22,560 nucleotides of DNA from a virus (IMGVR_UViG_3300023184_009572:1-22560), one strand, 5' to 3'. Numbered from the stretch's first letter, positions 4,367-22,560 are shown. Notes: generated from the sequence alone by a model not told the origin. Numbers and translations: made by a program.

Positions 4367-5473
4367 TTAGCTAGATTTAAGTGCTCGAGCAAAAATCTTA
4401 GCATGTGCTGGGTTTGCTAAGTCCAATTTTGAATTCGGCAAATTTGCGTAGCTCAAGGATATCGATGCTCTGAAGACTTTATTTCCTCCCGACTTAAGGA
4501 TTTCAGGTTTGATGAACGCGTTAAGAGACTTTGCAGCAGCTGCAAAACTCGTTGCACCTTTTAGTTCTAGAACATTGTTGAAAGAATAGAGACCCTTGCC
4601 TTGAATCTGTATATAATGGGCTTCCTTCTTCTTGTAGTAGTGGACTATATCCTTTATAGGCATTATTACGGGAGGACCTGATTGTGAAACACCCCCTTTT
4701 ATTATCTTGTCCCAGTCCACAGATTGAATCTGAGTGCCCAAAATCTCCATTGGCTTGTCTGGATGTATTGCGTCCCATGCTTTCTTAATACGAAGCAACC
4801 ACTCGTGTACTACTGTTGACGCGTTCAGAATATTGACAACTAGGTTTGCATTCTCGACCGACCTGGAATTTGGTGACGGAATAAATTTAAGTGTCTCATA
4901 ATTGTACTGAAGAGTAGGTTGACCGAATTTTGCACCTGCACCCTTGACCTCAATGCCAATTTTTGTGCCACTTTTTGTCTCTACAAAAACGTCCGATACT
5001 GTAGTGTCTACTGTTTCCTCTTCTGTCACTGCTGCTCCTACTGCAGCCAAAAGGTTCTTTACGTCACCTTCATAGGAATAACCTCCACCCCTTTGTCCGG
5101 ACGAAAGGCCTCCGGAAAAAACGAAGTTGACGATGTTTCCTTTCTTGACGCCTGTGACTTGATAAGTGTCGAATGTGTTCGAGTTTGTTTTTCCGATATT
5201 TTGAACAGATGGGCGGCCGCCGAAAGCTGCTACGTAAATAGCACGAGCCATACGACTAAACTCAGCGTCGGTGATTTCTTTGGGATTGCTATTAAGGAAC
5301 ACCCTACAGTGTTCTCCCGTTTTTGATTTAGGACCAAAGCATTTCACATGAGAAACATCTATTCCGGACTTTTGAGCAGCTGCCATTATTTGGTCGACTA
5401 GAGACATTCCGACACCACGTGAAAATTTTTCCAGCAACACTATTCGAATATACTTCTCAAGCAGATAATTCAT
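4367..5473 (-). CDS. PD-(D/E)XK nuclease-fold protein
   Basis: In this 368-residue protein, residues about 134-190 read as a restriction-endonuclease-like core. A helix contains YEGDVKNLLAAVGAAV, then VSDVFVETKSGTKIGIEVKG supplies D161 and the E175-x-K177 pair, and Q185 follows in FGQPTLQY. That is the D...ExK...Q order of phage PD-(D/E)XK enzymes. The N-terminus (MNYLLEKYIRIVLLEKF) is the short amphipathic helix seen on many neighbours. The C-terminal 170 residues, with 'VHYYKKKEAHYIQIQGKGLY', resemble accessory domains of restriction-type nucleases. The start is fused to the upstream ligase-like gene in ATGA (5473-5470), so the two are translationally coupled. Nuclease function is well supported by the motif; DNA specificity and role (repair or attack on host DNA) are unknown. 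Confidence 0.7.
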   Translation of the reverse strand: MNYLLEKYIRIVLLEKFSRGVGMSLVDQIMAAAQKSGIDVSHVKCFGPKSKTGEHCRVFLNSNPKEITDAEFSRMARAIYVAAFGGRPSVQNIGKTNSNTFDTYQVTGVKKGNIVNFVFSGGLSSGQRGGGYSYEGDVKNLLAAVGAAVTEEETVDTTVSDVFVETKSGTKIGIEVKGAGAKFGQPTLQYNYETLKFIPSPNSRSVENANLVVNILNASTVVHEWLLRIKKAWDAIHPDKPMEILGTQIQSVDWDKIIKGGVSQSGPPVIMPIKDIVHYYKKKEAHYIQIQGKGLYSFNNVLELKGATSFAAAAKSLNAFIKPEILKSGGNKVFRASISLSYANLPNSKLDLANPAHAKIFARALKSS

Positions 5474-6750
5474 AGCTTTTTCCTTTTTCCTTTGCGACCA
5501 TACTTGAAGAGGCCTAAAATCATATTCGCCGAGGCAAACGAGCCCGTAAATTTGTAAGCATTGCCTTTATAGATGAATACGACGCCTTCTACGGGGGAAG
5601 TGATGTTCTCCACCGCTTTCAACTTCTGCATCTGCGTAGCCAACACGCTCATCGCCGTCTCGTCGCCCGAAGCCTCGATGGCCGATATCGCATTCTGTAC
5701 CTCGCCCTGCAACCTTACCACCTCAGTGTCAGAATCGTCTATCAGAGTAGAACCCAACCCCTTCAGCAGCTCCACCGCAAAATCATTGATGGCCAACTCG
5801 ATAGGCTTCACGTAGCTCTTCAGTAGCGCTGGAGAATTCTTGACAAATGAAGTTATTACTTCATGGTCGGATTTATCGGCGGCCTTTCTGATGCCAACCA
5901 GAGTGGGAGCAGCCTCTTCCTCGACACATCGTGCAACCACCATCTCGGACACGGACTTCGACAATCCGAGGTCGGCCACATCCTCCTCCATGCGAGCCCG
6001 CAAATATTCCCCCATGGTCGCCGAAGAATCTACGCCGGCATCAGACAAAGCCGTATCAATGCTCGCCAATGTAGAATTTAATATCGACTTATCGGACAAC
6101 CCCTTCATCCTCGCCAAAGCCGGACCACGAACCTTCCACCCTCGGACAGCGACGGATGACTGCATTCTCTCCACATTGTTCGTCAGAATATCGACACCAC
6201 CAACCTCGTCTTCCGACATTTCGACGTTACCGTCCCTGGCAACCTTGAACACAGGCCATCCATGAAAGACAACGTTGTTGGAATCGTAATTGATGACATT
6301 CGGATTGGCAGTATAGATGACCTCCACAGAGTACCACCGGTTGGCACGGGGACCGAAAACCTTCGTCTTGATTTTTTGTGGCAAAGAACTGATGGCGCCA
6401 TTGAGAACCTTGAAGGCCGAATTGAATGCCTCTTCCAAATTGCCACGGCCCGTAAACTTAGAGGCCAAGGAAGCGGCGTCCATGCCGCCACGCTTGATGT
6501 CACCACCGGCCCTGGCGACCTTCAAAGAGTCGTTCTCGACGTCCCAGGAAAAGACGAGGTTAAGGCCGTCCAACTTTTCGGAAGCCTTTGTCAACTTGCC
6601 AGTGGCGGCCGCGGACAAGATGTCTTTCATCTCGGCAAAAGTCAAATCACGATTATCATACAAGTGCATGAGGTGACCCACGGCCCCGCCACACAAGAGA
6701 AGTTCCTTTCGCCGAGCCTCGGCGAGTAGCTCCAAAGCCTCTAGCTTCAC
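5470..6750 (-). CDS. DNA/RNA-ligase-superfamily nucleotidyltransferase (KxDG protein)
   Basis: The 426-residue protein has the order of motifs of covalent nucleotidyltransferases. Motif I is EKLDG, with K59 as candidate nucleotidylated lysine. An arginine- and glycine-rich 'AGGDIKRGGM' and 'KFTGRGNLEEAF' region follows, then motif III-like VEVIY (E143) and YDSNNVVFHGWPVF. Motif IV-like EGVVF (about 388-392) and motif V-like YKFTG (about 399-403) lie near the C-terminus. I recall similar 'KxDGxNL...EGIVFxYKGxxYKxTG' proteins from T4-like cyanophages, mostly unannotated. The insert between the two halves (about 200-380) is larger than in minimal ligases, and the classical OB domain is missing. 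Ligase, capping or AMP-transfer activity is plausible. The first residues, MKLEALELLAEA, match the (L/I)xE-A cleavage pattern discussed in the findings. Confidence 0.7.
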   Translation of the reverse strand: MKLEALELLAEARRKELLLCGGAVGHLMHLYDNRDLTFAEMKDILSAAATGKLTKASEKLDGLNLVFSWDVENDSLKVARAGGDIKRGGMDAASLASKFTGRGNLEEAFNSAFKVLNGAISSLPQKIKTKVFGPRANRWYSVEVIYTANPNVINYDSNNVVFHGWPVFKVARDGNVEMSEDEVGGVDILTNNVERMQSSVAVRGWKVRGPALARMKGLSDKSILNSTLASIDTALSDAGVDSSATMGEYLRARMEEDVADLGLSKSVSEMVVARCVEEEAAPTLVGIRKAADKSDHEVITSFVKNSPALLKSYVKPIELAINDFAVELLKGLGSTLIDDSDTEVVRLQGEVQNAISAIEASGDETAMSVLATQMQKLKAVENITSPVEGVVFIYKGNAYKFTGSFASANMILGLFKYGRKGKRKKL

Positions 6751-7262: not shown

Positions 7263-7807
7263 TTTTTCTTGGGTGTAATAGGAACAGGACCTGTGGTATC
7301 TTCGGCCGGCTTCGACTTTTTCTCTTCTTTTTCGGGAGTCTTGATGACAGTCGGTTTAATGGTCTTCTTTTGCGGTCCACTCGTCTTCTTCATCTCAATG
7401 TCGGCGGGATGAGCATCTGGTTCGACTGCAGCTTCTGGTTCAATCTCGCCAGAAACCACCTGAGAAATACCCTTAAGGAAGGCCAATAACGCGACTTTTT
7501 CGTTGCTGGATAAATCTTCTATGTATTGGGTCAACTTGCTGGATATTGACTCGTCCTTGAAGGATTTGCCGGACCTAATGGTATTAAGTTTCTCGATAAT
7601 ATCGTCGGCAGATATTTCTGCTTTCTTGAGCTTCTCCATCTCGGGGCCGGCTTGTTTGGAAACTGACTTTTTCTCGCCAGAAGCAACGTCTTGTTTCTCT
7701 TTTTCTTGAAGAGACCTGCGTTGGAGAGTCGACTTGACACTCTCTTGGATTATTTTGGCGAGGTAAGAATCGATGCTTTTTCCTGGTTTGATCTGTTGTT
7801 TAATCAT
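7259..7807 (-). CDS. Hypothetical virion-type protein, helical core with disordered tail
   Basis: From the ATG at 7807 it is 182 residues. A start at 7834 would add nine residues and overlap the upstream gene by 11 bases. Neither start has a strong Shine-Dalgarno, and the choice rests on spacing and on placing the usual amphipathic helix (SIDSYLAKIIQESVKSTL) at the N-terminus. A charged linker is followed by a folded helical module (about 65-125: ISADDIIEKLNTIRSGKSF, then SSKLTQYIEDLSSNEKVAL). A Pro/Lys/Glu-rich low-complexity tail of about 50 residues follows. I remember similar helical modules from marine myovirus proteins of unknown role, but without firm identity. No enzyme motif is present. 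Confidence 0.6.
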   Translation of the reverse strand: MIKQQIKPGKSIDSYLAKIIQESVKSTLQRRSLQEKEKQDVASGEKKSVSKQAGPEMEKLKKAEISADDIIEKLNTIRSGKSFKDESISSKLTQYIEDLSSNEKVALLAFLKGISQVVSGEIEPEAAVEPDAHPADIEMKKTSGPQKKTIKPTVIKTPEKEEKKSKPAEDTTGPVPITPKKK

Positions 7808-12118: not shown

Positions 12119-12687
12119 CCACCACCTGGGTTAACCCCTGCTCTATCGGCTGTCGGGGCCTGGAATTTATCGTCATCAGTTTCAAACTTGGACTTGCCTA
12201 TTTCTACATCGTAGCGTTCTATCAGATCTTCCTTAAAGGAGTCCACTACGTCTTTTTCATAAGACTTCAACAAGAAGTTGACTGCTCGTCGCAAGACTGT
12301 GTCCCTGACCTCGAGAAGATTGTCGTAGTTATCGACAAGCCTCATGACGCTATCGACAAAAACGTCGACATCAATATCATCAGAAGAAAGTTTCTTTGTT
12401 TCTTTTTCTTCCTCGTTCTTATCCTCGTCGTCTTCCTTGTCCTCATCGTCCTTTTTTTCGTCATCTTCGGCCTCTGTCAAAAATCGCCTGACAAAGGAAC
12501 GAAAATCTTTGCCTTCTGTCTTAGAAGCCTTGGATTCTTTTTCGTAATCTACGAGATACTTGTCGACCTGAGCATCAAGGGAATCCTCTCCTTTTTCGGC
12601 CTCATCTTGACCAAGCTGCTCTTGGAGGGCCCGACGAGTCTCAACAAGAATCAACTGGCGTAACTGGCTGAGCTTCATGCGGGACAT
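12115..12687 (-). CDS. Acidic virion-type protein with two (L/I)xE helices
   Basis: The ATG at 12687 shares its A with the upstream TGA (TGATG), seven bases after AGGTGG, and gives 190 residues. A GTG at 12690 and an ATG at 12678 are alternatives. It begins MSRMKLSQLRQLILVETRRA, a textbook example of the helix recurring in this block. A second copy (DFRSFVRRFLTEAED) stands at 61-75. A very acidic Asp/Glu/Lys linker (about 75-98) separates this from a folded helical domain (about 102-165: DDIDVDVFVDSVMRLVDNYD onward). A KSKFETDDD...APTADRAG tail closes it. I remember similar C-terminal domains from unannotated T4-like marine phage proteins. A prohead or scaffold-associated protein is the best guess. 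Confidence 0.6.
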   Translation of the reverse strand: MSRMKLSQLRQLILVETRRALQEQLGQDEAEKGEDSLDAQVDKYLVDYEKESKASKTEGKDFRSFVRRFLTEAEDDEKKDDEDKEDDEDKNEEEKETKKLSSDDIDVDVFVDSVMRLVDNYDNLLEVRDTVLRRAVNFLLKSYEKDVVDSFKEDLIERYDVEIGKSKFETDDDKFQAPTADRAGVNPGGG

Positions 12688-13400
12688 CACTTCACCACCT
12701 GGGCAATTGATTCGGCTTTCTTGAAACGCTCCTCGATGACCGTCCAGTTAAACTCTCTCATCTGGGAGATGAGATAGCTCTTCGGATCGTTGAGATAATC
12801 CCTGTAATAAGCGTGTTCCCACATGTCGACAACGACGAGAGGATAGAATCCCATCGGGATGCTACCAGCATGATCATCAACCAAGAAATTAACATACTTT
12901 TTGAGAAAAAGATGATAACCGCAGACGGCCCAACCACCGCGGGAAGCCAAAGCGCATGCCATGAAATCTCGCTGCCAATCATCGAAGGTCCCGAAATCTC
13001 TCTCGAGGCGAAGATAAGCCGTCGAATCCATCACAACCTCGGAGTGCGGGTCGAAACAATTGGCAAAATACAACTCATGAAGCCAAACGGCATTGAGATT
13101 CCAAGTCTCATCCAACTTGAGAGAACGATACTGAGAATGACGGTGGTTGACCTCGGACCTGTCAACCGTGTCTAGTTCAGCAGAAACCTTATTGAGAGAT
13201 TCAATATAGTTCTTGTATTTCTCGATGTGAGCGGTCTTAGTCTTCTGGGAAACAAACTCAGAAACCTGTTTGAATGGCTTAGGTTCGGCGACATAAGACT
13301 CTTCGAGACGTGGAAGATTAGCGGCTATTGTACTGTCAACAGCGTTCTTCACTAGTCCCTTTAACATGTTATCTAATCCGCTCTTTTTAGTCGAGTTCAT
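12687..13400 (-). CDS. Fe/Mn-type superoxide dismutase with N-terminal extension
   Basis: The ATG at 13400 is chosen because GGAGAAG (13405-13411) lies four bases upstream; the frame is open to 13427. The 237 residues contain the four metal ligands expected for Fe/MnSOD: H58 (AHIEKYKNY, matching 'YHxxKHHxxY'), H108 (VWLHELYFAN, matching 'VWNHTFYW'), and D192 and H196 in VDMWEHAYYRDY. FGTFDDW at about 136-142 matches 'FGSFxxF'. The enzyme disproportionates superoxide to O2 and H2O2. The second-shell Gln of E. coli FeSOD (before 'VWNH') is not conserved, so metal preference and redox tuning are uncertain. Residues 1-50 are not part of a normal SOD and include a helix, NMLKGLVKNAVDSTI, like the possible packaging helices of neighbouring proteins. 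Confidence 0.8.
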   Translation of the reverse strand: MNSTKKSGLDNMLKGLVKNAVDSTIAANLPRLEESYVAEPKPFKQVSEFVSQKTKTAHIEKYKNYIESLNKVSAELDTVDRSEVNHRHSQYRSLKLDETWNLNAVWLHELYFANCFDPHSEVVMDSTAYLRLERDFGTFDDWQRDFMACALASRGGWAVCGYHLFLKKYVNFLVDDHAGSIPMGFYPLVVVDMWEHAYYRDYLNDPKSYLISQMREFNWTVIEERFKKAESIAQVVK

Positions 13401-13668
13401 AATTCTTCTCCAGTTCGTCTTTATCAATCAAGAAATCTTCGCCTTCGGGCGTCTTAAGCATAATGTCTCGAGGACCAACAGAAACTATGGTATAAAGTAT
13501 CTGGCTTTTCTTGTGACGAATCTTCAAGTCGGGAGACAACACATCCTTCTTCTCACCATCGACTTTTGACTTCAACATGAGATCAATCTCTTCCGACAAA
13601 GCGGTCAACTTATTTGACCACTCTTCTCGCATTACCCTCAAGATATCTTCTTCGTTCAATGTCTTCAT
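13387..13668 (-). CDS. Small hypothetical protein, beta-rich C-terminal domain
   Basis: In this 93-residue protein, the N-terminus, MKTLNEEDILRVMREEWSNK, is a further copy of the amphipathic (L/M)xE helix. Residues about 45-93 form a compact beta domain (SPDLKIRHKKSQILYTIVSV, then GPRDIMLKTPEGEDFLIDKDELE) that looks SH3- or KOW-like. I recall this 'LKVRHKKSGxxYTVxSV' pattern from other phage proteins of unknown role. It overlaps dCMP deaminase upstream by ATGA and the SOD gene by 14 bases downstream. No catalytic residues are evident. Confidence 0.6.
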   Translation of the reverse strand: MKTLNEEDILRVMREEWSNKLTALSEEIDLMLKSKVDGEKKDVLSPDLKIRHKKSQILYTIVSVGPRDIMLKTPEGEDFLIDKDELEKNYELD

Positions 13669-14105
13669 AACGCCCTGTCTCTAATTATGGCCTCTTCCAG
13701 ACTAAAAACCTCTATTCCCACAGAAGTTAAAATTTCCAATCCAGACATGTCCCTATAAGGAACGTCGTACACAACCCTGGCTATTTCAGCATTAACTATT
13801 AACTTGGCACACGCTCGACACGGTGAATGTGTCAAATACATGTGCTTCTTCTTGCCAAAGTTAAAATCACACTTGATCAAAGCGTTGGCTTCGGAATGGA
13901 TAAAACCGCTCTGCCCTGCGTCCAAAGATTCAGGCTCATGAGGTCCGCCCCTGTAATTACCGTTATATCCTATCGATAACATCTGCGTATTGTCGGCCGA
14001 GACGACGATCGATCCAACTTTGAGACGCGGATCGTAAGATCGCTGCGCTACAACTTTAGCGATGGACATCCAAGTCTCGGGCCAAGTTATTCTTAAAGTC
14101 TCCAT
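13665..14105 (-). CDS. dCMP deaminase (zinc-dependent)
   Basis: The 146-residue protein has the cytidine/deoxycytidylate deaminase zinc site: H70 and catalytic E72 in FIHSEANAL, then C96 and C99 in SPCRACAKL. GYNGNYRGGPHE at about 47-57 is the substrate loop of ComEB/T4 Cd-type dCMP deaminases. It converts dCMP to dUMP, feeding dTMP synthesis. Beside a dCMP-hydroxymethylase-like enzyme it would also help remove unmodified dCMP, as in T4. The length is normal for the family; the usual HAE is HSE. It starts one base after the thymidine kinase stop and overlaps the next gene in ATGA. Confidence 0.88.
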   Translation of the reverse strand: METLRITWPETWMSIAKVVAQRSYDPRLKVGSIVVSADNTQMLSIGYNGNYRGGPHEPESLDAGQSGFIHSEANALIKCDFNFGKKKHMYLTHSPCRACAKLIVNAEIARVVYDVPYRDMSGLEILTSVGIEVFSLEEAIIRDRAL

Positions 14106-14106
14106 A

Positions 14107-14685
14107 TCAAGTTTCTTGATTTAAAATCAAAGGATGGCAACGCAAACATCGGGGCTCATAAAGTTCAGCTCCACCGACCTCGATCTCGTCACCACCGGTC
14201 TGCTTCTTATAAGTGTAATAAGCATCCCTATTACAGACCACACAGACGGCACTTCTCTTTTCTATTGTAGTTGCCCAAGGTAACATTTTCTCGACCTCTT
14301 CAAAGGGCTTTCCTGAGGCGGAGAGATCCAGCGTGGACACAACCACCGAGTAACCGCTGCGATACAACCAGATGAGAACCTCTGCGACACCTGGTATCAT
14401 AAAAGCTTCGTCGACAGCCACAATATGAGGATTTTCATCGAGCTCGGCAAGTCTTTCCAGGATATCTCGACCAGTCTTCACGCACGTAGCGGGGATCTTC
14501 CACCCGCTGTGAGTCGAAATATCTTCGCTACTGTATCTATCGTCGAGCTGCGGCTTAAAAGTAGCCACCTTCTTACCTTGATATTTAAACCTATCAATCA
14601 TCGACAACAAGCCTGTCGTCTTTGCACCGAACATCGGGCCCAGGAAGACTGTGAAAATAGGATTAGTCTGTATCGCTTTGCTCAT
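14107..14685 (-). CDS. tdk: Thymidine kinase (type II)
   Basis: The ATG at 14685 is preceded at five bases by GTGAGG (14691-14696); an in-frame ATG at 14721 would overlap the upstream gene. The 192 residues show the P-loop GPMFGAKT at 16-23, a Walker B/lid DEAFM motif around 91-95, and a C-terminal zinc ribbon (CVVCNRDAYYTYKK ... CLRCH). All of these are typical of the tetrameric TK1-like family. It phosphorylates thymidine (and deoxyuridine) to the monophosphate with ATP, salvaging nucleosides. It lies between the thymidylate-synthase homologue and dCMP deaminase in a nucleotide operon. Confidence 0.92.
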   Translation of the reverse strand: MSKAIQTNPIFTVFLGPMFGAKTTGLLSMIDRFKYQGKKVATFKPQLDDRYSSEDISTHSGWKIPATCVKTGRDILERLAELDENPHIVAVDEAFMIPGVAEVLIWLYRSGYSVVVSTLDLSASGKPFEEVEKMLPWATTIEKRSAVCVVCNRDAYYTYKKQTGGDEIEVGGAELYEPRCLRCHPLILNQET

Positions 14686-14692
14686 GAAAACC

Positions 14693-15703
14693 TCACTTCT
14701 TGAAATAATGGTATCCTTCAAAAGTAGTGCTCGACAGCAAAGTATCGGCCAACTTTTTATCTCCTAACTTCACCGCTCGATGAGATGCCAAAATCTTACA
14801 CCAATCCGCCCAATAATCGACATCTACATTGGGCTGCTTTAAAGAAGTGTTTAAAGTAGTAAGAAGATGATTCGTCGTCTTTGCTTTACGATAACCCGTC
14901 TCGCTAAGAGCCAGCTCCAGAGAAGGAACCTGAGCAGGAAGAGCCGGCATTTCGAGAGGAGTCTCGGCACGGAACTTCCAGGCTTCATCGATAATCTTCT
15001 CGACCATCTCAAAATGACGCTCGTAAATATGTAGCGAACCGCTGAGGTGGACGTAGTCTCCAAGACCAATAGGACGACCCAAATCGTGCGTCAACTCTGC
15101 CGCCAAAAGTTCCTGGAATAAGGTAAACGCTGGCACATCATAGGCCAATCCAAGAATAGCATCGGACGACCTCATGGAAGTAATCATGTGCACTTTGTCG
15201 TTCCTCAAAAAGAACTGAAGAGACAAAGTACAAGGAACATCGAGCGTAGCAGAAATAGAATCCTTTGGAGATCTAATATGAATTACGGCGCGCCGCGAAT
15301 CGGGATCTTTTTTTAACTCTTCAACAACGTAAGACCATTGTGTCCAATTATTGGATACATCGCCAGCAATCCTGGGATGTGGCTTAAAGATGCGCGCACC
15401 ATAGGCACTATTCGCTGTCTTGCCATCGTCGGAAATCTTCGACCAGAAAGAAGAATAATTAGAAATCCATTCTGTGGAATCGCTGCCGTTCAAATACCAC
15501 AGTAGCTCCGCGACCATGTATTGTACGGAAAAATCGCGAGATTTGACATAAGGAATCCTGTTCCTGGGATTCGTAATCTTAAACTGATAGCCTAAAGATT
15601 CTTTAACCTTCAACCCACGAGGCGAAGAAGTAAAATCAGGACGTGTATAAACATCCTTCAGAATGTCGACGTAAGCCTCAGTGAAATTATCGTATACTGT
15701 CAT
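14693..15703 (-). CDS. Thymidylate-synthase-family enzyme, probable dCMP hydroxymethylase
   Basis: The 336-residue protein, from the ATG at 15703 (ATGA overlap with the epimerase stop), has all the core TS-fold elements: R137-R138 (phosphate binding), catalytic C158 in DVPCTLSLQFF, R178 in MRSSDAILG, and SGSLHIYERH (H225, Y227). At the position of the base-reading Asn of dUMP enzymes ('LGLPFN') it has D189 (LGLAYD). Asp at this site is the hallmark of T4 gp42-type dCMP hydroxymethylase, and changing Asn to Asp in thymidylate synthase shifts it to dCMP. The 'CT' after the nucleophile and GSLH also resemble gp42. The likely product is 5-hydroxymethyl-dCMP from 5,10-methylene-THF. A dCMP methylase, or a normal synthase with relaxed reading, remains possible. 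Confidence 0.8.
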   Translation of the reverse strand: MTVYDNFTEAYVDILKDVYTRPDFTSSPRGLKVKESLGYQFKITNPRNRIPYVKSRDFSVQYMVAELLWYLNGSDSTEWISNYSSFWSKISDDGKTANSAYGARIFKPHPRIAGDVSNNWTQWSYVVEELKKDPDSRRAVIHIRSPKDSISATLDVPCTLSLQFFLRNDKVHMITSMRSSDAILGLAYDVPAFTLFQELLAAELTHDLGRPIGLGDYVHLSGSLHIYERHFEMVEKIIDEAWKFRAETPLEMPALPAQVPSLELALSETGYRKAKTTNHLLTTLNTSLKQPNVDVDYWADWCKILASHRAVKLGDKKLADTLLSSTTFEGYHYFKK

Positions 15704-16665
15704 TTTGAAAGCCCTAAGTTCTTGACTACACTCCAATTATCATCATACCACTTAATAGTACGATCTAACCCATCCCAAAACCTGACCAGAGGTGTATAAC
15801 CTAAAACTTCTTTCGTTCTAGATATATCGGCCTGAGTATGCATTACATCGCCAGGTCTCCAAGGAGCATCATGGTACTTGGCATCCGGATACTTGGACAA
15901 AAGATACTGCAAAATTTCGTTGTTTGTTGTTCTGTCACCACATGCGACATTCAAACAAACAGCTTCTAAAGGATTTTGTGACTCCGCTCCTCGAATGCAA
16001 GCGTCGACGACATTGTCGACATAACACATATCTCGTGATTGGGAACCGTCCCCATCCGATCGCATAGACGTCCCCTTCTTGATCGCAGTCAACCAGGCAG
16101 AAACAGCAGTAGAATAGGGAGAATCGCCAAGCTGATTTGGGCCAAAAACATTAAAGAAACGAAGACAGACAGAATCAAGCTGATAAAGTTCATAATAAAG
16201 CTTCAAATAATCTTCAATGATCGACTTTTGCAAAGCATAAGGAGACTTAGAATTCTTAGGGCTAGTGACTGGCGTTGGTAGTTCATCTGCGCCGCCATAG
16301 ACGGAAGAAGAAGAAGCGAACACAAAACGTTTTACATTTCCACGACAGGCATCCATCAACGTCAAAGTTTTGCTGACATTAACATCATTGGTTTCGACAG
16401 GGTGCTCTACGGAATAACTGACTCTAGGTACGGCGGCGAGATGAAACACGACATCGTAGCAACCTTCCTTGATTCTATCTAAAATGGTCTTCGAAGCAAA
16501 ATCTATGAGAAATAGACCATCACTGTCTACAACTCCCTTGGAAATAAATTCGAAATGACCATTCGATAAATCATCTACAATATCGACTGTATCGCCCCTT
16601 TCCACTAATTTAGCGACAAGATTGCTTCCAATAAAACCTGCGCCGCCCGTTACTAGTGCCCTCAT
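15700..16665 (-). CDS. NAD-dependent nucleotide-sugar epimerase/dehydratase (extended SDR)
   Basis: The 321-residue extended short-chain dehydrogenase has an NAD-binding GGAGFIGSNL at 7-16, HLAAVPRVSYS at about 75-85, SSSSVYGG at about 118-125, and the catalytic pair in SPYALQKSIIEDY (Tyr and Lys of YxxxK). LRFFNVFGPNQ and RDMCYVDN are typical of UDP-hexose or UDP-N-acetylhexosamine 4-epimerases (GalE/WbpP-like). It would interconvert nucleotide sugars in the cytoplasm. Phages use such enzymes for capsule/LPS mimicry, glycosylated virions or glucosylated DNA. No glycosyltransferase lies in this window. It sits tightly between two thymidylate-synthase-fold genes, which suggests a link to DNA modification, but this is contextual only. 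Confidence 0.87.
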   Translation of the reverse strand: MRALVTGGAGFIGSNLVAKLVERGDTVDIVDDLSNGHFEFISKGVVDSDGLFLIDFASKTILDRIKEGCYDVVFHLAAVPRVSYSVEHPVETNDVNVSKTLTLMDACRGNVKRFVFASSSSVYGGADELPTPVTSPKNSKSPYALQKSIIEDYLKLYYELYQLDSVCLRFFNVFGPNQLGDSPYSTAVSAWLTAIKKGTSMRSDGDGSQSRDMCYVDNVVDACIRGAESQNPLEAVCLNVACGDRTTNNEILQYLLSKYPDAKYHDAPWRPGDVMHTQADISRTKEVLGYTPLVRFWDGLDRTIKWYDDNWSVVKNLGLSK

Positions 16666-16669
16666 GTCA

Positions 16670-17317
16670 TTATCCTTTTTTGGTAAATCTATTCACGTAA
16701 TCTACAAAATTCTGCCAACTAGAAACGCCTTGAGCCGAAGAAGAATAAACAGACAATTGTTTTGCCTTTCCTTCGTAAACTGGCTGGATGAAAAATTCAT
16801 GTATTGTCAATAAATCTACGAATAATTCGTTTTTGACATCGGATGCCCTAAAAATCAACCTAGGAGTGTCGCCAATGTAATGAACGAGATTCAAACAAGT
16901 GACATCTATTTGGGAATCAATTTCGCTGGAAGAATATTCGGCATAGGAATTGGCCAACCTGACCATACAACGCCTTGTGTTAGGATGCAAAGAAATGTGT
17001 TGTCTTATTCTGTCTAATAGATCCAGATAGGAATAACCATTTTGTCTTTCGCTAGCTACGGTATAAATTGTTGAATCCAAAATTTTTAATTTGGATAATG
17101 AATTTAGACTAGGTCTATCTTCTTCAAAGTCCGCAAAAACACTTGGATCTACATTTTTAGCACGAAATGCCTTCCTCTTTGTTTCATAATAAGAAGCCAG
17201 CGATGGAGATTCCTGTCGAAAAATGTCGATTGCCTTTTGTCCGACTGGTATGCAATCGACATCTATCCTAAAAAGATAATCATCATTTTCAAATTCGGGA
17301 GCTTTTAATATTTGCAT
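16670..17317 (-). CDS. Divergent thymidylate-synthase-fold protein
   Basis: The 215-residue protein looks unfamiliar at first but lines up with the thymidylate-synthase homologue two genes downstream. NTRRCMVRLANS (R115-R116) matches DSRRAVIHIRSP. DVTCLNLVHYI (C141) matches DVPCTLSLQFF. RASDVKNELFVD (R157, D160, D168) matches RSSDAILGLAYD with identical spacing, and LSVYSSS (Y191) matches LHIYERH. The nucleophile-position Cys, the paired Arg and the base-contact Asp are all kept, but the His before the Tyr is Ser and the N-terminal folate-side region differs. It could be a pyrimidine-modifying relative, a regulatory subunit, or a degenerate paralogue. GGATGAAA precedes the ATG. It lies three bases after the carbamoyltransferase and four before the epimerase, in one operon. 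Confidence 0.6.
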   Translation of the reverse strand: MQILKAPEFENDDYLFRIDVDCIPVGQKAIDIFRQESPSLASYYETKRKAFRAKNVDPSVFADFEEDRPSLNSLSKLKILDSTIYTVASERQNGYSYLDLLDRIRQHISLHPNTRRCMVRLANSYAEYSSSEIDSQIDVTCLNLVHYIGDTPRLIFRASDVKNELFVDLLTIHEFFIQPVYEGKAKQLSVYSSSAQGVSSWQNFVDYVNRFTKKG

Positions 17318-17320
17318 GTT

Positions 17321-19084
17321 TCATCCATCAAAATCACAAAGATGCAACAATGGAAGCTCATGTCCTAATTCTAGGGACTTGTCAAACTCAAATTTAAAAC
17401 TATCCAAGACGCTGTCCAAATCATACACAATCGGTCGACCATGGGCATTGAAACTGGTATTGATGAGAGCCTTTGAAAAATCTGAGACACCATTAAGAAC
17501 TTCAGTCATAAAGGTGTCATTGGGATCGATGATCTGTGGACGACCTGACCAAACCTCTCTGTCTGGATATTTGTGGGCGATGCCACCGTAGCCTTTCAGG
17601 TCCGGGGAAACATAATCATAGGTTAAAATCATAAACCTATCCGATCCGATTACCCTATCACTATACCTCGCATCAAAAAAGTTTTGCACCACATTATGAA
17701 GCATAACCGGGGCCATCGGCATCACTGTATCCCTCTCATTGATATCATTAATTATTTCCACATTGGATGTGGTGGGGACAGCTAGCGTCGTCGTGCTACA
17801 CAAGGCCCTAGGGCCAAATTCCATCTTCGATTTTACAACATTCACCAGTTTATTGGTCCGCAAAGCGGAGACCGTATCGAGGACGGCTTTCTCTCTATCA
17901 GCAAAAGAATAATAGCGAATATGTTCTCCATATTTAGCAATGTCCTGCTTGGAAATAGTCGAAGACCAATCCTTAAATGCTGGTCGATCACCCCACTTAA
18001 GGTCACCCCACTTAAAATCACCAACATAAGCTTCGAACATGCCAATGCCACAACCTTGGTCACCAGCCAAAGGAACTACGGAGAATAATCCCGTTGTATT
18101 GGTCAACACCTGATTGTTCAGTTTTACATTGTAAAAAATACCACCAGATAGAGCAACGTGCTTCATGTTGTAATGCTCGACAATTTTCAACATGACACCT
18201 TCGATGACCTGCTGAATGTAGTGACCAACCACAATTCTAACATCTCTGCCCTGCAATCCAGGGGAAATTGCAGCAACCACTTCTTCAAAATGCTTGTACC
18301 ATGATTTCTTCGTCTCCATCAAAGAAGGAACATTAATGAGGCCATCATGATTGTCCCATCCTGAATTTCGACAATCGGGAGAATTCTTCATCGACTCAAA
18401 CATGGAAACGACCTTTTGTCCCGCCATGGCCCGAAGAGCCTGTAGCGAGTTAACCTCCAGTACGTCGGAAACGTGGGATTCATAACCTAAAAATTTATAT
18501 TCATCTTGGTTCTCTTTCATGCCACAAAATGAAGTGGCATACTGGTACATGAGCCCCAAAGAATAATCAAAACCATGATATCTGCCGACCAATTTTGGTC
18601 GAGAAGACAAGTCTTCGACGGAGGTCTCATAAATGCTAATGACCTCTTGTGAATTTCCAAATCCATCGGCAGCCACAATGTGCAACTTGTCGCCGCGATC
18701 AATTTTCTGATCATGCTTAGAATTCCACTTGTCCTTCAAAAAAGACAATGCCGACCAGGCGTGGGCGTCGTGATGGGTGAAGTTTTCGCTCAGCACAACA
18801 TTTTTAAGCGAATACTTTTCAACTAGAATATCGAAGGCTTCCTTGTCGAAGTATTTGTTGGACTTTTTTGTGAAGTCGAAATCATCGAACCAATGGGAAA
18901 TAAAGACATAGCTTCCAGGCTCGATCTTGAGCCTCTTCTCGATCTCGGCAATAGCCATATAAGGATAAGAACTGGAAGATTTAATCCTGTTGAGTCTCTC
19001 CTCTTCGTAGCCTAAAGCCTTGTTCCCATCAAAATAAACTGCAGACGAATTATGGCCAAGAGTCAACATCAAAGCTGTTGTCAT
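17321..19084 (-). CDS. NodU/TobZ-family carbamoyltransferase
   Basis: The 587-residue protein is full length for the family. The N-terminal Kae1/ASKHA-like domain has LGHNSSAVYFDG (9-20), GYEEERLNRIK (25-35), the metal-binding HHDAHAWSA (104-112), ADGFGN (139-144), ALSGGIFYNVKLNNQ (311-325) and PLAGDQGCGIG (338-348). The C-terminal domain has MEFGPRAL (421-428), PMAP (456-459) and NTSFNAHGRPIV (542-553). The enzyme makes carbamoyl-AMP from carbamoyl phosphate and ATP, then transfers the carbamoyl to a hydroxyl. The canonical 'GNRS' after GPRAL has become CSTT, which may reflect a different acceptor. In an operon with a dCMP-hydroxymethylase-like enzyme the natural acceptor is the hydroxymethyl group of 5-hydroxymethylcytosine. 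A sugar hydroxyl is the alternative, given the epimerase. GGAG lies just before the ATG. Confidence 0.88.
   Translation of the reverse strand: MTTALMLTLGHNSSAVYFDGNKALGYEEERLNRIKSSSSYPYMAIAEIEKRLKIEPGSYVFISHWFDDFDFTKKSNKYFDKEAFDILVEKYSLKNVVLSENFTHHDAHAWSALSFLKDKWNSKHDQKIDRGDKLHIVAADGFGNSQEVISIYETSVEDLSSRPKLVGRYHGFDYSLGLMYQYATSFCGMKENQDEYKFLGYESHVSDVLEVNSLQALRAMAGQKVVSMFESMKNSPDCRNSGWDNHDGLINVPSLMETKKSWYKHFEEVVAAISPGLQGRDVRIVVGHYIQQVIEGVMLKIVEHYNMKHVALSGGIFYNVKLNNQVLTNTTGLFSVVPLAGDQGCGIGMFEAYVGDFKWGDLKWGDRPAFKDWSSTISKQDIAKYGEHIRYYSFADREKAVLDTVSALRTNKLVNVVKSKMEFGPRALCSTTTLAVPTTSNVEIINDINERDTVMPMAPVMLHNVVQNFFDARYSDRVIGSDRFMILTYDYVSPDLKGYGGIAHKYPDREVWSGRPQIIDPNDTFMTEVLNGVSDFSKALINTSFNAHGRPIVYDLDSVLDSFKFEFDKSLELGHELPLLHLCDFDG
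17988..18015. repeat. Tandem 15-base duplication inside the carbamoyltransferase gene
   Basis: TCACCCCACTTAA occurs at 17988-18000 and again at 18003-18015, a 15-base period. In the protein this gives two KWGD units at about 358-366 (FKWGDLKWGDR). The reading frame is kept, so this is a small in-frame duplication of five residues. It lies in the linker just before the C-terminal domain and away from the catalytic motifs. Confidence 0.75.
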
Positions 19085-19590: not shown

Positions 19591-20625
19591 TCAGCTCTCC
19601 AATACCTTGATCTTGCTCATGAAGGTTTTACAACCGTAATTGTCGACTGTGACTTCGGCGATGCATACCGAATACAATGGAAATTCCGTCGTGCCATTCC
19701 AGCCCCAACAGAATATTCTCTTATTCTGACCGGTCAAACCTGAAGCCTCAAGAATGAGATATGGCTTGTTGTTCTTGGTCATTTTGGTTTTCACGCCCAT
19801 TACTACAAACCAATAGATGTCACTGCTTTCCAATTCATCAATAGGTTTTACACCACGTTCTTGCAACTTGGCCAAAATTTGATCCGGAACCAAAGAATCT
19901 GGGTTGAAGGAGCTCAAATACTTCATAGTGTTGTTGACGGATTCCTGCCTCGTCCAATCATCCATGTCATTGGTCTCGACGAGCGCATCCCGAAAGGCCT
20001 CCATGCCGGCCGTCAAGTTCTTCTTTGTGCTCTTCTTGATGTCTGTGTTCCTGTTGATAAGAATCTCGTACATTTGCTTGTAGTTGTTAAAGACCTTGCC
20101 TTCGCCAACACAGTCCAAGGAATCGAAAGCCCTCACCGCCACCAATGCCTCCATTGCCTTTCGATTGAATTTGGAATGCCTCCATTGGCCTGTGGGATAC
20201 CACAATAAATCCTCCACGGATTTGTAGGGTCTATTTTCCATAATCTCTTCTACGGCCGCCGTGCCCACCCCCTTACATGACAAGAAGCTAGGCATGAACC
20301 TTTTCCCTTCGAGGATGGTCCAACCTTTGTTGGCGTAGTTGATGTCGATGTCGACGACTTTATAACCCAAAGCTTTAACCTCAGAAAATGCCTTGGATCG
20401 CTTGTCATCGCTGTCCGACATCGACTCGAGATATGCGCATAACCACTCCTCCTCGTAATAGGTGAGCAACCAGGCACAATAATACGAATCAATGGCGTAA
20501 GAGAATGCATGACTATTCGATGTCAGGATTCCATTTGACAAATAGAACTGATGATCAGGGTGTTCAACCTCAAGATCGAAGGTGTCATCTTCACCGATTT
20601 CAACGACGCTAACAATATTAGACAT
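19591..20625 (-). CDS. dnaE: Int-C split intein fused to the C-terminal part of DNA polymerase III alpha
   Basis: The 344-residue protein starts with a 37-residue intein C-terminal domain (MSNIVSVVEIGEDDTFDLEV, then HPDHQFYLSNG and ILTSN) ending in Asn37. The extein continues SHAFSYAIDSYYCAWLLTYY, which is the 'SHAxxYA' segment of bacterial DnaE. After trans-splicing it would supply the rest of the fingers and the HhH region (for example KALGYKVVDIDINYANKGW; FLSCKGVGTAAVEEIM). The extein part is about 307 residues. It has its own ATG at 20625, preceded only by a weak GGGTG, and overlaps the small upstream ORF by eight bases. Without splicing, this fragment alone could not form a polymerase active site. 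The two-base gap to the kinase gene places it in the same operon. Confidence 0.85.
   Translation of the reverse strand: MSNIVSVVEIGEDDTFDLEVEHPDHQFYLSNGILTSNSHAFSYAIDSYYCAWLLTYYEEEWLCAYLESMSDSDDKRSKAFSEVKALGYKVVDIDINYANKGWTILEGKRFMPSFLSCKGVGTAAVEEIMENRPYKSVEDLLWYPTGQWRHSKFNRKAMEALVAVRAFDSLDCVGEGKVFNNYKQMYEILINRNTDIKKSTKKNLTAGMEAFRDALVETNDMDDWTRQESVNNTMKYLSSFNPDSLVPDQILAKLQERGVKPIDELESSDIYWFVVMGVKTKMTKNNKPYLILEASGLTGQNKRIFCWGWNGTTEFPLYSVCIAEVTVDNYGCKTFMSKIKVLES
20515..20625 (-). other. Int-C domain of a split intein
   Basis: Codons 1-37 match intein blocks F and G: DTFDLEVEHPDHQFYLSNG then ILTSN, with the terminal Asn at 20515-20517 and Ser as the first C-extein residue. The penultimate residue is Ser, not the common His, as in cyanobacterial DnaE inteins (ending ASN). 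A 37-residue length starting with Met is typical of natural split Int-C pieces (about 35-37 residues). Confidence 0.85.
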
Positions 20626-20797
20626 TTTTTACACCCAATATGTCATTCACAATGTCATCAAATCCATCGATGTGCGTTTTGATTCCATCAATTTCCCTGC
20701 ATTGCTTTGCCTCAAGCAGAAGCTCGTCGACATCTATGTTCATATTTTTTGCCAATCGCAAAAGAGATGCTTCAAATTGTTGTTTTCGGTTCATCAT
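20618..20797 (-). CDS. Small ORF between homing endonuclease and Int-C
   Basis: Two consecutive ATG codons at 20797 and 20794, seven bases after the endonuclease stop, open a 59-residue frame. It ends eight bases inside the Int-C start. The frame is open further upstream (to 20875), but that part overlaps the endonuclease. The protein is predicted helical and acidic (QFEASLLRLAKNMNIDVDEL, then DGFDDIVNDILG). It has no motif I recognise. The tight fit on both sides suggests a real gene, and it may help translate the downstream fragment by coupling. The Shine-Dalgarno is weak. It could also be a remnant of a larger mobile unit. Confidence 0.4.
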   Translation of the reverse strand: MMNRKQQFEASLLRLAKNMNIDVDELLLEAKQCREIDGIKTHIDGFDDIVNDILGVKNV

Positions 20798-20804
20798 GTG
20801 TTGA

Positions 20805-21881
20805 TCATACCATCGAAGCGTACAAGTTTTCACTGTAAGCCTTGCCGAGTCGAATAATGCCGAACTTTGAATCACATTCTTTCAAAAGATTTATCACATC
20901 ACTTTGAAATGATTTTCCGTTGAACATGTCTTCAGATATTCGGATTAGGAGATAACCATTTTCCATCGCATAATTTTCTACGGCGAGGTCTCTTTTGATT
21001 TGTTGGTCAAAAAGCTCAATACCCAAGATCGGAAAAAAATGAAATGGTCCATCAAATTCTATTAGTATGTGCTTTGATTTATTCGCTATGTCCACCCTGG
21101 CTCTATGAGACTTATTCGGAATAGATGGATGTTTTATTTGAAACTGAGATGTAACTTCGGAACCCCAAATTTCTTTACACATATTCAACAGGATCTTTTC
21201 AGGTCTTGAAGAACCTCGACCAATGAACTTTGAAGCCATTTCTTGAAATAGCTCTGGATTATTAATCCGCCAATTATTGAGATTCTCTGTTCTTTTTGCT
21301 ATTATTTCGGGTCTGGAGCTTGTGATTCGTGCGACAGCAGAAGACCTATCACGAAAATCTTTCCTCTTGTTCAATGAGCCTAACATGACAGATCTTCTGT
21401 CTCGCTCTTCTGGAGAAGAGAGTATCGCTCTCGAAACAGAATCAGACATTTTTTGCCTGTATTCTGTTAGATCAAGCCCTTCTTTCTTCCTTCTCTCAAT
21501 CCAGTTGCAGTTATCAGTTGCACTATATTTTTTAGATGACACATCACAAATTGTTGGTCCGTACAGTTCAAAATATTTTTCTTTCGATAACTGGTGTTGT
21601 GAATTCACGTGTTGTGTGATCTTGCTTCCTGCGAACTTACAAAGAGCACATTCTACATAGTCAACACCTATTTTCCCGTCAGGCCAACATCTCAATACAT
21701 GCAACTCATGCGCAAGATATAGATGTGGTTGTTTTTTTCTTGGTCCAACATGGGTGTCACACCTATTACACCAATAACTTATCTCCGGTCTTTCGTCACA
21801 ATCGACAATTTTTGTTCGAGAATCTCTTTCAAAGGCAGCATCCTCCCGTCCGTCGTCCTGAACTTGTGGTCCATCGTGCAT
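20805..21881 (-). CDS. Vsr/EDxHD-type homing endonuclease between the two dnaE halves
   Basis: The 358-residue protein has an N-terminal cysteine-rich part with two CxxC pairs (C38/C41 and C78/C81) and histidines H91/H96 (CALCKFAGSKITQHVNSQH), like phage zinc-finger DNA-binding modules. A basic, helical middle (about 125-215) with repeated 'RRSVMLGSLNKRK'-like units follows and could be tandem DNA-contact elements. The C-terminal nuclease core has E228 (SRPEKIL), D264 (RARVDIA), then LIEFDGPFHFF (E275, D277, H281) and D298 (IKRDLA). This E...D...x...H...D order is that of the Vsr-like homing endonuclease family reported within fractured split-intein genes. It starts at an ATG inside the Int-N frame with a strong AGGGGAG eight bases upstream. 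It would cut intein-less dnaE alleles and drive spread of the unit. Confidence 0.8.
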   Translation of the reverse strand: MHDGPQVQDDGREDAAFERDSRTKIVDCDERPEISYWCNRCDTHVGPRKKQPHLYLAHELHVLRCWPDGKIGVDYVECALCKFAGSKITQHVNSQHQLSKEKYFELYGPTICDVSSKKYSATDNCNWIERRKKEGLDLTEYRQKMSDSVSRAILSSPEERDRRSVMLGSLNKRKDFRDRSSAVARITSSRPEIIAKRTENLNNWRINNPELFQEMASKFIGRGSSRPEKILLNMCKEIWGSEVTSQFQIKHPSIPNKSHRARVDIANKSKHILIEFDGPFHFFPILGIELFDQQIKRDLAVENYAMENGYLLIRISEDMFNGKSFQSDVINLLKECDSKFGIIRLGKAYSENLYASMV

Positions 21882-22087
21882 TTAACTTTCTCCCCTGTAT
21901 CAAGGACAACCTCATAAAGCTTTTTCACACCATTGTGATGCCTCTTTACAACCCGGGTAAAAACATCATTGCCAGTGGCTTCATCTCTAGTCATAACGAT
22001 GTCACCAGAATTGACTTCCCTGATTTGCTTTCTTACGACGTTTCCTTCACCGTCATAAGTATCTACTTCAGTGGAAAAGTGAACACA
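21779..22087 (-). other. Int-N domain of a split intein
   Basis: The intein starts at Cys1 (codon 22085-22087), directly after GYGFNS of DnaE. It runs 102 codons to a TAA at 21779-21781. Block A is CVHFSTEVDTYDGEG. Block B is CTMDHKFRTTDG, with the T-x-x-H catalytic motif (T71, H74). It ends MLPLKEILEQKLSIVTKDRR, the point where many inteins carry their endonuclease insert. The length equals that of known natural DnaE Int-N pieces. Confidence 0.85.
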
Positions 22088-22560
22088 TGAGTTGAAGCCA
22101 TAACCAGCAAAAAATAGGATCTTTTCGTAAAGTTCGTCGGCAATCTTTTCAGGTACGCCGTTGCGCACCGCACCAGACACAAAATCGACTTTGGACTTTT
22201 TGGCCTCATCGACACCCTTCGCACCATCTTTCGCTGTCGTCTTTTTCATGATATTACGACGGATAGTGTCGGTCTCAGTCTCTGGAAAACCGGCCACAAC
22301 AGAACACAATTTCATCACGGATTCCTGAAAAATTATACAGCCAAAAGTCGGCTCAAGAACCTTTTTGATGAGTGGATGCAAATAATCGATCTTGTCAGGA
22401 TTGGCCTTAGAATCCAAATATAATTTGTCAACGTTAGCCGCCAAAGGACCAGGGCGATAGATGGAAGTCAGAGTCGCAATGTCGAGGATGCTCGTCGGTT
22501 TTGCCCTCATGAACAATCGTTGGGCTCCAGCGTTGGCAAGCTGAAAAATACCGGCAAACC
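21779..22560 (-). CDS. dnaE: N-terminal part of DNA polymerase III alpha fused to Int-N (partial)
   Basis: The frame is open from the right edge of the window, so the gene starts outside. The DnaE portion includes AGIFQLANAGAQRLFMRAKP, DIATLTSIYRPGP, and FGCIIFQESVMKLCSVVAGF, which match the bacterial 'GIFQxES', 'ALYRPGP' and 'YQExVMxIA' regions of the palm and fingers. It ends ILFFAGYGFNS, where the extein stops and Int-N begins. DnaE is the replicative polymerase subunit. Here the chain is cut at the GYGFN-SHA site and must be joined to the 19591-20625 product by protein trans-splicing to be active. The edge truncation means PHP and catalytic Asp residues are not in view. Confidence 0.88.
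   Translation of the reverse strand, partial: FAGIFQLANAGAQRLFMRAKPTSILDIATLTSIYRPGPLAANVDKLYLDSKANPDKIDYLHPLIKKVLEPTFGCIIFQESVMKLCSVVAGFPETETDTIRRNIMKKTTAKDGAKGVDEAKKSKVDFVSGAVRNGVPEKIADELYEKILFFAGYGFNSCVHFSTEVDTYDGEGNVVRKQIREVNSGDIVMTRDEATGNDVFTRVVKRHHNGVKKLYEVVLDTGEKVKCTMDHKFRTTDGRMLPLKEILEQKLSIVTKDRR
21890..21896 (-). promoter_or_regulatory. Strong ribosome binding site inside Int-N for the homing endonuclease
   Basis: AGGGGAG (minus strand, 21896-21890) stands eight bases before the ATG at 21881. It is formed by the GGG-GAG codons of DTGEKVK within the Int-N reading frame. It decides the endonuclease start and implies a nested start, with 103 bases shared by two reading frames. Confidence 0.6.

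Follow-up and report, generated by a model that had tools for sequence, protein, structure and literature searches.

The window analyzed here, a 22,560-base record of an uncultivated virus (IMGVR_UViG_3300023184_009572:1-22560), carries a dnaE gene, encoding the alpha subunit of DNA polymerase III (Pol III), that is broken by the two halves of a split intein with a separate endonuclease gene between them. We read this arrangement as a mobile element, composed of a split intein and a homing endonuclease, that resides in a phage dnaE gene and would act at both the protein and the DNA level; the probability of this reading is put at about 0.88. At the sequence level it is carried by the anatomy of the element, its insertion site, an empty allele, a family of relatives, conserved catalytic residues, purifying selection and an overlap between genes.

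Intein halves and endonuclease gene within dnaE

All parts of the element lie on the minus strand and are given in window coordinates. The 157 residues encoded from the edge of the record (22558) correspond to the finger domain of Pol III alpha (DNA_pol3_finger, Pfam PF17657, 1.2e-30), and this N-extein (22088..22558), which is open at the contig edge, ends with ..FAGYGFNS. The frame runs on into a 102-residue N-terminal intein half (Int-N, 21782..22087, Cys1 codon 22087-22085) and is closed by a TAA stop at 21781-21779. Int-N was recognized by alignment of 22 Int-N sequences, by matches to DnaE inteins of the PDB and by the NCBIfam model intein_Nterm (TIGR01445), against which it scored 27.2 bits, above the cut-off of 24.5. 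A 37-residue C-terminal half (Int-C, 20515..20625) opens with its own ATG at 20625, has the block F sequence DLEVEHPDHQF and the end LTSN, and scored 17.3 against intein_Cterm (TIGR01443; cut-off 15.6). It is fused to the remaining 307 residues of DnaE (C-extein, 19591..20514; coding 20514-19594, stop 19593-19591), which start Ser+1-His-Ala (SHAFSYAID) and match Pfam HHH_6 (PF14579, 3.2e-9) and the DNA polymerase family PHROG 405 (4.9e-33). The pair has the residues of a class 1 intein (position 1, TxxH, a terminal Asn and Cys, Ser or Thr at +1), here Cys1, TMDH in block B, the terminal Asn and Ser+1, together with the block F Asp. These features agree with the original prediction, made from this sequence alone, of a polymerase frame ending in a 102-residue Int-N with a true stop, of a separate ATG opening a 37-residue Int-C fused to the rest of the polymerase, and of a complete set of splicing residues.

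Between the halves lies an endonuclease open reading frame (ORF) of 358 residues (20805..21881), in the -1 frame relative to Int-N, which was assigned by weak family matches to phage endonucleases (PHROG 559/9084) and by a fold match. A region resembling the Ros/MucR zinc finger (Z 4.3) is followed, at about residues 223-350 of the model, by a nuclease domain of the Vsr/EDxHD type. In a structure model that drew on the window sequence and six relatives, the nuclease domain is confident, with block means of the predicted local distance difference test (pLDDT) mostly at 83-92 for residues 231-350 and one block at 67. Comparison of this domain by VIA-align gave Z 11.3 against Vsr (1cw0; root-mean-square deviation (rmsd) 3.7, 136 residues aligned) and Z 9.3 against the catalytic domain of I-Bth0305I (3r3p_B; rmsd 2.9, 95 aligned). 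Residues Glu-228, Asp-264, Asp-277, His-281 and Asp-298, candidates for the catalytic set, are invariant in seven relatives, as judged by alignment. The endonuclease profile returned only a weak Ros zinc-finger match among PDB sequences (HMMER). Relatives were recovered with a seven-sequence profile but not with the window endonuclease as a single query against viral contigs and phage records. A small ORF of 59 residues (20618..20797), without relatives in the single scan made, follows the endonuclease, and its stop overlaps the Int-C ATG (ATGTCTAA).

The closest polymerase among viral contigs, on a 298-kb contig (L002), has no insert and is 88% identical in amino acid sequence over the first 168 residues; at the DNA level the N-extein is 79.8% identical to this relative. 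The empty site of L002 reads GYGFN-S-AHAFSYAID, and the sequence in further close relatives without the intein is GYGFN-x-(S/A)HA, with Ser in nearly all. Comparison with these relatives places the window junction at FNS|SHA (site FN-x|S-H), with an insert of 1,573 bp, so that the N-extein ends GYGFNS and the junction originally predicted, GYGFN|SHA, fell one residue too early. The +1 place is held by Ala in L002 and, in the window, by the Ser that splicing needs. Insertion after FN-x also distinguishes this allele from the cyanobacterial DnaE split site, which we take to be Y|CFN. That the two insertion points differ had been correctly foreseen, but the distance between them is four residues, not three.

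In the mechanism proposed, the phage would make two precursors, DnaE(N)-IntN and IntC-DnaE(C), whose intein halves would associate to give the HINT fold. Class 1 trans-splicing would then proceed through an acyl shift at Cys1, transfer to Ser+1 and cyclization of the terminal Asn, ligating ..GYGFNS to SHAFSYAID.. and restoring a single alpha chain with the predicted junction peptide ..GYGFNSSHAFSY... The endonuclease would cut dnaE alleles that lack the intein, close to FN-x|S-H, and the entire block would be copied during repair and could thereby spread between phages.

An RNA intron as the cause of the dnaE break was rejected, given that a search of the window against Rfam found no intron. 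A tRNA search found none.

A family of inteins at one DnaE site

Counting that of the window, three profile scans and one genome scan identified 48 distinct inteins inserted at this position of DnaE. The 47 others lie nearly all in uncultivated viral contigs. An endonuclease is present in most loci, and nine are split with a short gap that holds no endonuclease motif. In two loci, L077 (1474-5001) and L085 (325-5001), several unrelated phage ORFs separate the halves, by 3.5 and 4.7 kb, respectively; these dispersed dnaE and intein halves resemble dispersed cyanobacterial dnaE. Two further inteins are contiguous, L087 with 147 residues and L100 with 145. The HINT fold was recognized in the structure model of L087 (mean pLDDT 89.8), for which the best match was NpuDnaE (Z 21.3, rmsd 1.6 over 134 residues), and Z values of 18.4 and 18.6 were obtained against gp41-1 and NrdJ-1, respectively. 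The window halves were matched by sequence: when joined, they gave E values of 2e-17 and 1e-16 against solved DnaE inteins of the cyanobacterial type and a weaker 6.5e-9 against gp41-1.

Position 1 is Ser in 35 inteins, Cys in ten and Thr in three. For the last, the call was made by aligning the sequences on the conserved junction FN-x|S-H (L057, 5792; L109, 4651; L120, 3855). All 22 aligned Int-N sequences have the block B His, and all 20 aligned Int-C sequences have both the block F Asp and the terminal Asn. The ratio of nonsynonymous to synonymous substitution rates (dN/dS) is about 0.08-0.19 in six pairs, which indicates that the intein is under purifying selection. Together with the invariant catalytic residues, this selection argues for active splicing and strongly suggests, as originally proposed, a phage replicase that depends on trans-splicing. 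The same observations bear on the alternative that the polymerase fragments form a non-covalent two-subunit enzyme and that the intein pieces no longer splice. In its favor, the dnaE gene of L029 is also broken by a free-standing endonuclease with no obvious full intein at the break, so that a broken gene may be tolerated even where no intein is present. Yet the low dN/dS, the occurrence of Cys, Ser or Thr at position 1 in 48/48 inteins, the invariant His, Asp and Asn, and the retention of both intact intein halves by loci that have lost the endonuclease make such an enzyme improbable.

The purifying selection on the intein likewise counts against the view that dnaE is a pseudogene in decay, carrying a parasitic insert, in a phage that uses the replicase of its host. 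The mobility of the element and the broken state of some endonuclease genes (the remnant in L042, and L063) would suit decay of this kind, but both exteins carry polymerase signatures in open frames, and we consider a pseudogene very improbable. A sequencing or assembly error in what is truly a continuous intein with a nested endonuclease is less credible still. A single indel could yield the -1 relation of Int-N and endonuclease, but this relation, together with a stop after Int-N and a start of its own for Int-C, recurs in many independent contigs; in four loci (L031, L032, L055 and L059) the frame differs and the arrangement is a separate one, and in L077 and L085 there are 3.5-4.7 kb of other genes between the halves. 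The same break in dozens of independent contigs indicates that the layout of the split element is neither chance nor an assembly slip.

Queries with Int-N or endonuclease sequences, from the window and its relatives, gave no match in 50,697 named-phage records, and queries with the N-part and the C-part of the window returned no isolate carrying the element. Given the absence of a match among the named phages, the family appears to be restricted to phages that are uncultivated and often large. The named-phage records examined that do have a DnaE intein near the site (MT835601, Grayson) contain contiguous mini-inteins. The Int-N profile had no match in bacterial genomes, and the Int-C profile matched one short contig (L073, 3196 bases) of a Thioploca metagenome-assembled genome, which has the same split dnaE intein and is possibly a phage contaminant.

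Additional inteins were observed in the dnaE genes of two loci. That of L029 (1721-7764) contains two contiguous mini-inteins, one N-terminal and one at GYGFN|C, and has a third break occupied by a free-standing endonuclease-like ORF (4577-5875) at which no full intein is evident. In L032 (2764-6750) there is a second, contiguous intein of roughly 400 residues at a GRG|SVGG site.

Overlap of the endonuclease gene with Int-N

The endonuclease ATG (21881-21879) lies inside Int-N, at the K-C of KCTMDH, giving an overlap of about 100 nucleotides. A Shine-Dalgarno-like GGGGAG (21890..21895, minus strand), contained in the Int-N codons for GEKVKC, precedes it by 8 nucleotides. The window and 14 relatives have the endonuclease in the -1 frame relative to Int-N, and in 14 of the 15 loci no stop interrupts this frame between the TxxH block and the stop of Int-N. 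When these codons were recoded synonymously, 1.1-4.3 stops were expected on average, and the per-locus probabilities multiplied over 14 loci amount to about 1e-25, a value that serves as a rough guide given that the loci are related. The overlap is not open in loci where it need not be read: the stretch contains four stops in L042, which has lost the endonuclease except for a remnant of its C terminus before Int-C (7324-7439) and keeps both intein halves intact, and five and three stops in L031 and L032, respectively, where the endonuclease starts downstream of the Int-N stop. This indicates that the overlap is open only where the endonuclease is read through it.

The position of the start is common to the 15 loci, namely the two codons preceding the CT of the block, with ATG in 14 and GTG in L054, and GGAG occurs upstream in many. 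We infer that the endonuclease would be translated from this internal ATG in the -1 frame. At the downstream end of the gene, several loci (L006, L031, L038, L041, L051 and L055) have an endonuclease stop that overlaps the ATG of Int-C; in the window, the 59-residue ORF occupies this position. Such overlaps between parts probably couple their translation. The endonuclease of L063 is frame-broken.

An alternative is that -1 ribosomal frameshifting, with no internal start, yields the endonuclease fused to Int-N. The -1 frame is open over the entire overlap, as frameshifting demands, but an internal start demands the same. The start codon conserved in the TxxH block, the upstream GGAG and the separately placed, +1-frame endonuclease genes of L031, L032, L055 and L059 speak against frameshifting, which we regard as unlikely.

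Several points nevertheless weigh against the reading of the window as a mobile element with an internally started endonuclease. A -1 ribosomal frameshift could replace the internal start, and conservation of the GEKVKC residues in part dictates both the ATG and the GGAG motif, which leaves the motif weak on its own. The structural match of the nuclease is moderate, the best Foldseek match being Vsr at an E value of 6e-3. The N-terminal half of the polymerase falls outside the 22,560-base record. Finally, trans-splicing, cutting by the nuclease and homing are activities predicted from sequence.

Direction of change and relation to known systems

In the polymerase tree, the window falls in a 17-row clade (support 99/96) of which the other 16 members are intein-free, with L002 as its sister (100/100). 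Since its polymerase clade is otherwise free of inteins, the insert appears to have been gained recently in the window lineage. The window Int-C is 57-76% identical to 19 other Int-C sequences, with a median of 68%, as compared with a median of 31% for the exteins, and the intein nearest to that of the window, L123, is 64% identical, with exteins at 59%. The position in the clade and these identities fit a gain by homing. Loss of the endonuclease is scattered on the intein tree, with at least six changes forced by well-supported branches, as in the pattern of a homing cycle.

The contiguous inteins L087 and L100 are each nested in groups of split members in trees drawn with midpoint roots. This nesting favors, as a hypothesis, a direction of change from split to contiguous. 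A single clade for both contiguous inteins was not rejected by the approximately unbiased test (p 0.133), so that two independent re-fusions are not proven. One close pair is available, the fractured L075, which has an endonuclease, and the contiguous L087, whose polymerase flanks are 89% identical and which share about 79% DNA identity over >7 kb. We tentatively suggest, at somewhat less than even odds, that the split form is the old state at this site, kept broken by an endonuclease that starts within a catalytic block, and that the contiguous (L087, L100) and dispersed (L077, L085) forms are derived. If so, splitting would come before contiguity and could revert to it, the reverse of the usual account in which a mini-intein becomes split; split inteins are still presented in reviews as mini-inteins that have broken (PMC7765530). 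A single site in one phage gene is found empty, fractured with a nuclease, split but nuclease-free, dispersed or contiguous, and because all of these states, including the pair L075 and L087, are found together, the order of events is directly testable.

Fractured genes with split inteins and Vsr-related endonucleases were reportedly described by Dassa et al. in 2009. The window conforms to the definition of such a gene, as cited in PMC7090010 and PMC6892783: the frame of a phage enzyme of DNA metabolism is broken by split-intein halves, a free-standing Vsr-type endonuclease gene lies between them, and empty alleles exist at the site. The original assignment to this layout therefore holds for each feature that can be tested on sequence. 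Going by descriptions in citing papers, the window appears to differ from those genes in its host protein and site (DnaE at FN-x|S-H), in the -1-frame start of the endonuclease nested in the TxxH block of Int-N, and in the occurrence of Ser, Cys and Thr alleles at one site.

The cyanobacterial split DnaE inteins (Npu, Ssp) share the host protein, a corresponding split place and a penultimate Ser before the last Asn, and are the nearest solved inteins by sequence and, through the contiguous member, by fold. The window intein differs from them in its insertion four residues further on, in Ser+1 rather than Cys+1, and in adjacent halves with an endonuclease gene, and the cyanobacterial inteins fall outside the phage group in the intein tree. 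Like gp41-1, NrdJ-1 and IMPDH-1, it is a naturally split intein of the environmental phage type, with a HINT fold modeled in the contiguous member L087; unlike it, those three reside in other host genes and lie outside the DnaE group in a tree whose outgroup sequences are in part provisional. In the jumbo phage vB_PaeM_MIJ3, PolB is split by an intein with an HNH endonuclease ORF between the halves (PMC6892783). There too a replicative polymerase is broken, but it is of family B and the nuclease is HNH, as opposed to DnaE and a Vsr-like nuclease here. With I-Bth0305I, one of the EDxHD enzymes (described in PMC3943268), the window endonuclease shares the fold of the nuclease domain, and its invariant residues would make a plausible E-D-x-H-D set; identity is only 15%, and the DNA-binding part of the window protein consists instead of Ros/MucR-like zinc fingers.

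A literature search that excluded most subscription papers and the 2009 table of fractured genes found no report of a phage DnaE split intein at FN-x|S-H. The window is a new case of a known arrangement, in which novelty is likeliest for the internal start within the overlap and for the gradation of states. The family comprises many natural split inteins with Ser1, Cys1 or Thr1, mostly without Cys1, for use in protein ligation.

Elsewhere in the window, genes for a carbamoyltransferase, an NAD-dependent epimerase, thymidylate synthase, thymidine kinase and dCMP deaminase are clustered at 13665-19084 on the minus strand. Positions 12687-13427 encode an Fe/Mn superoxide dismutase-like protein, as indicated by a match to the C-terminal domain.

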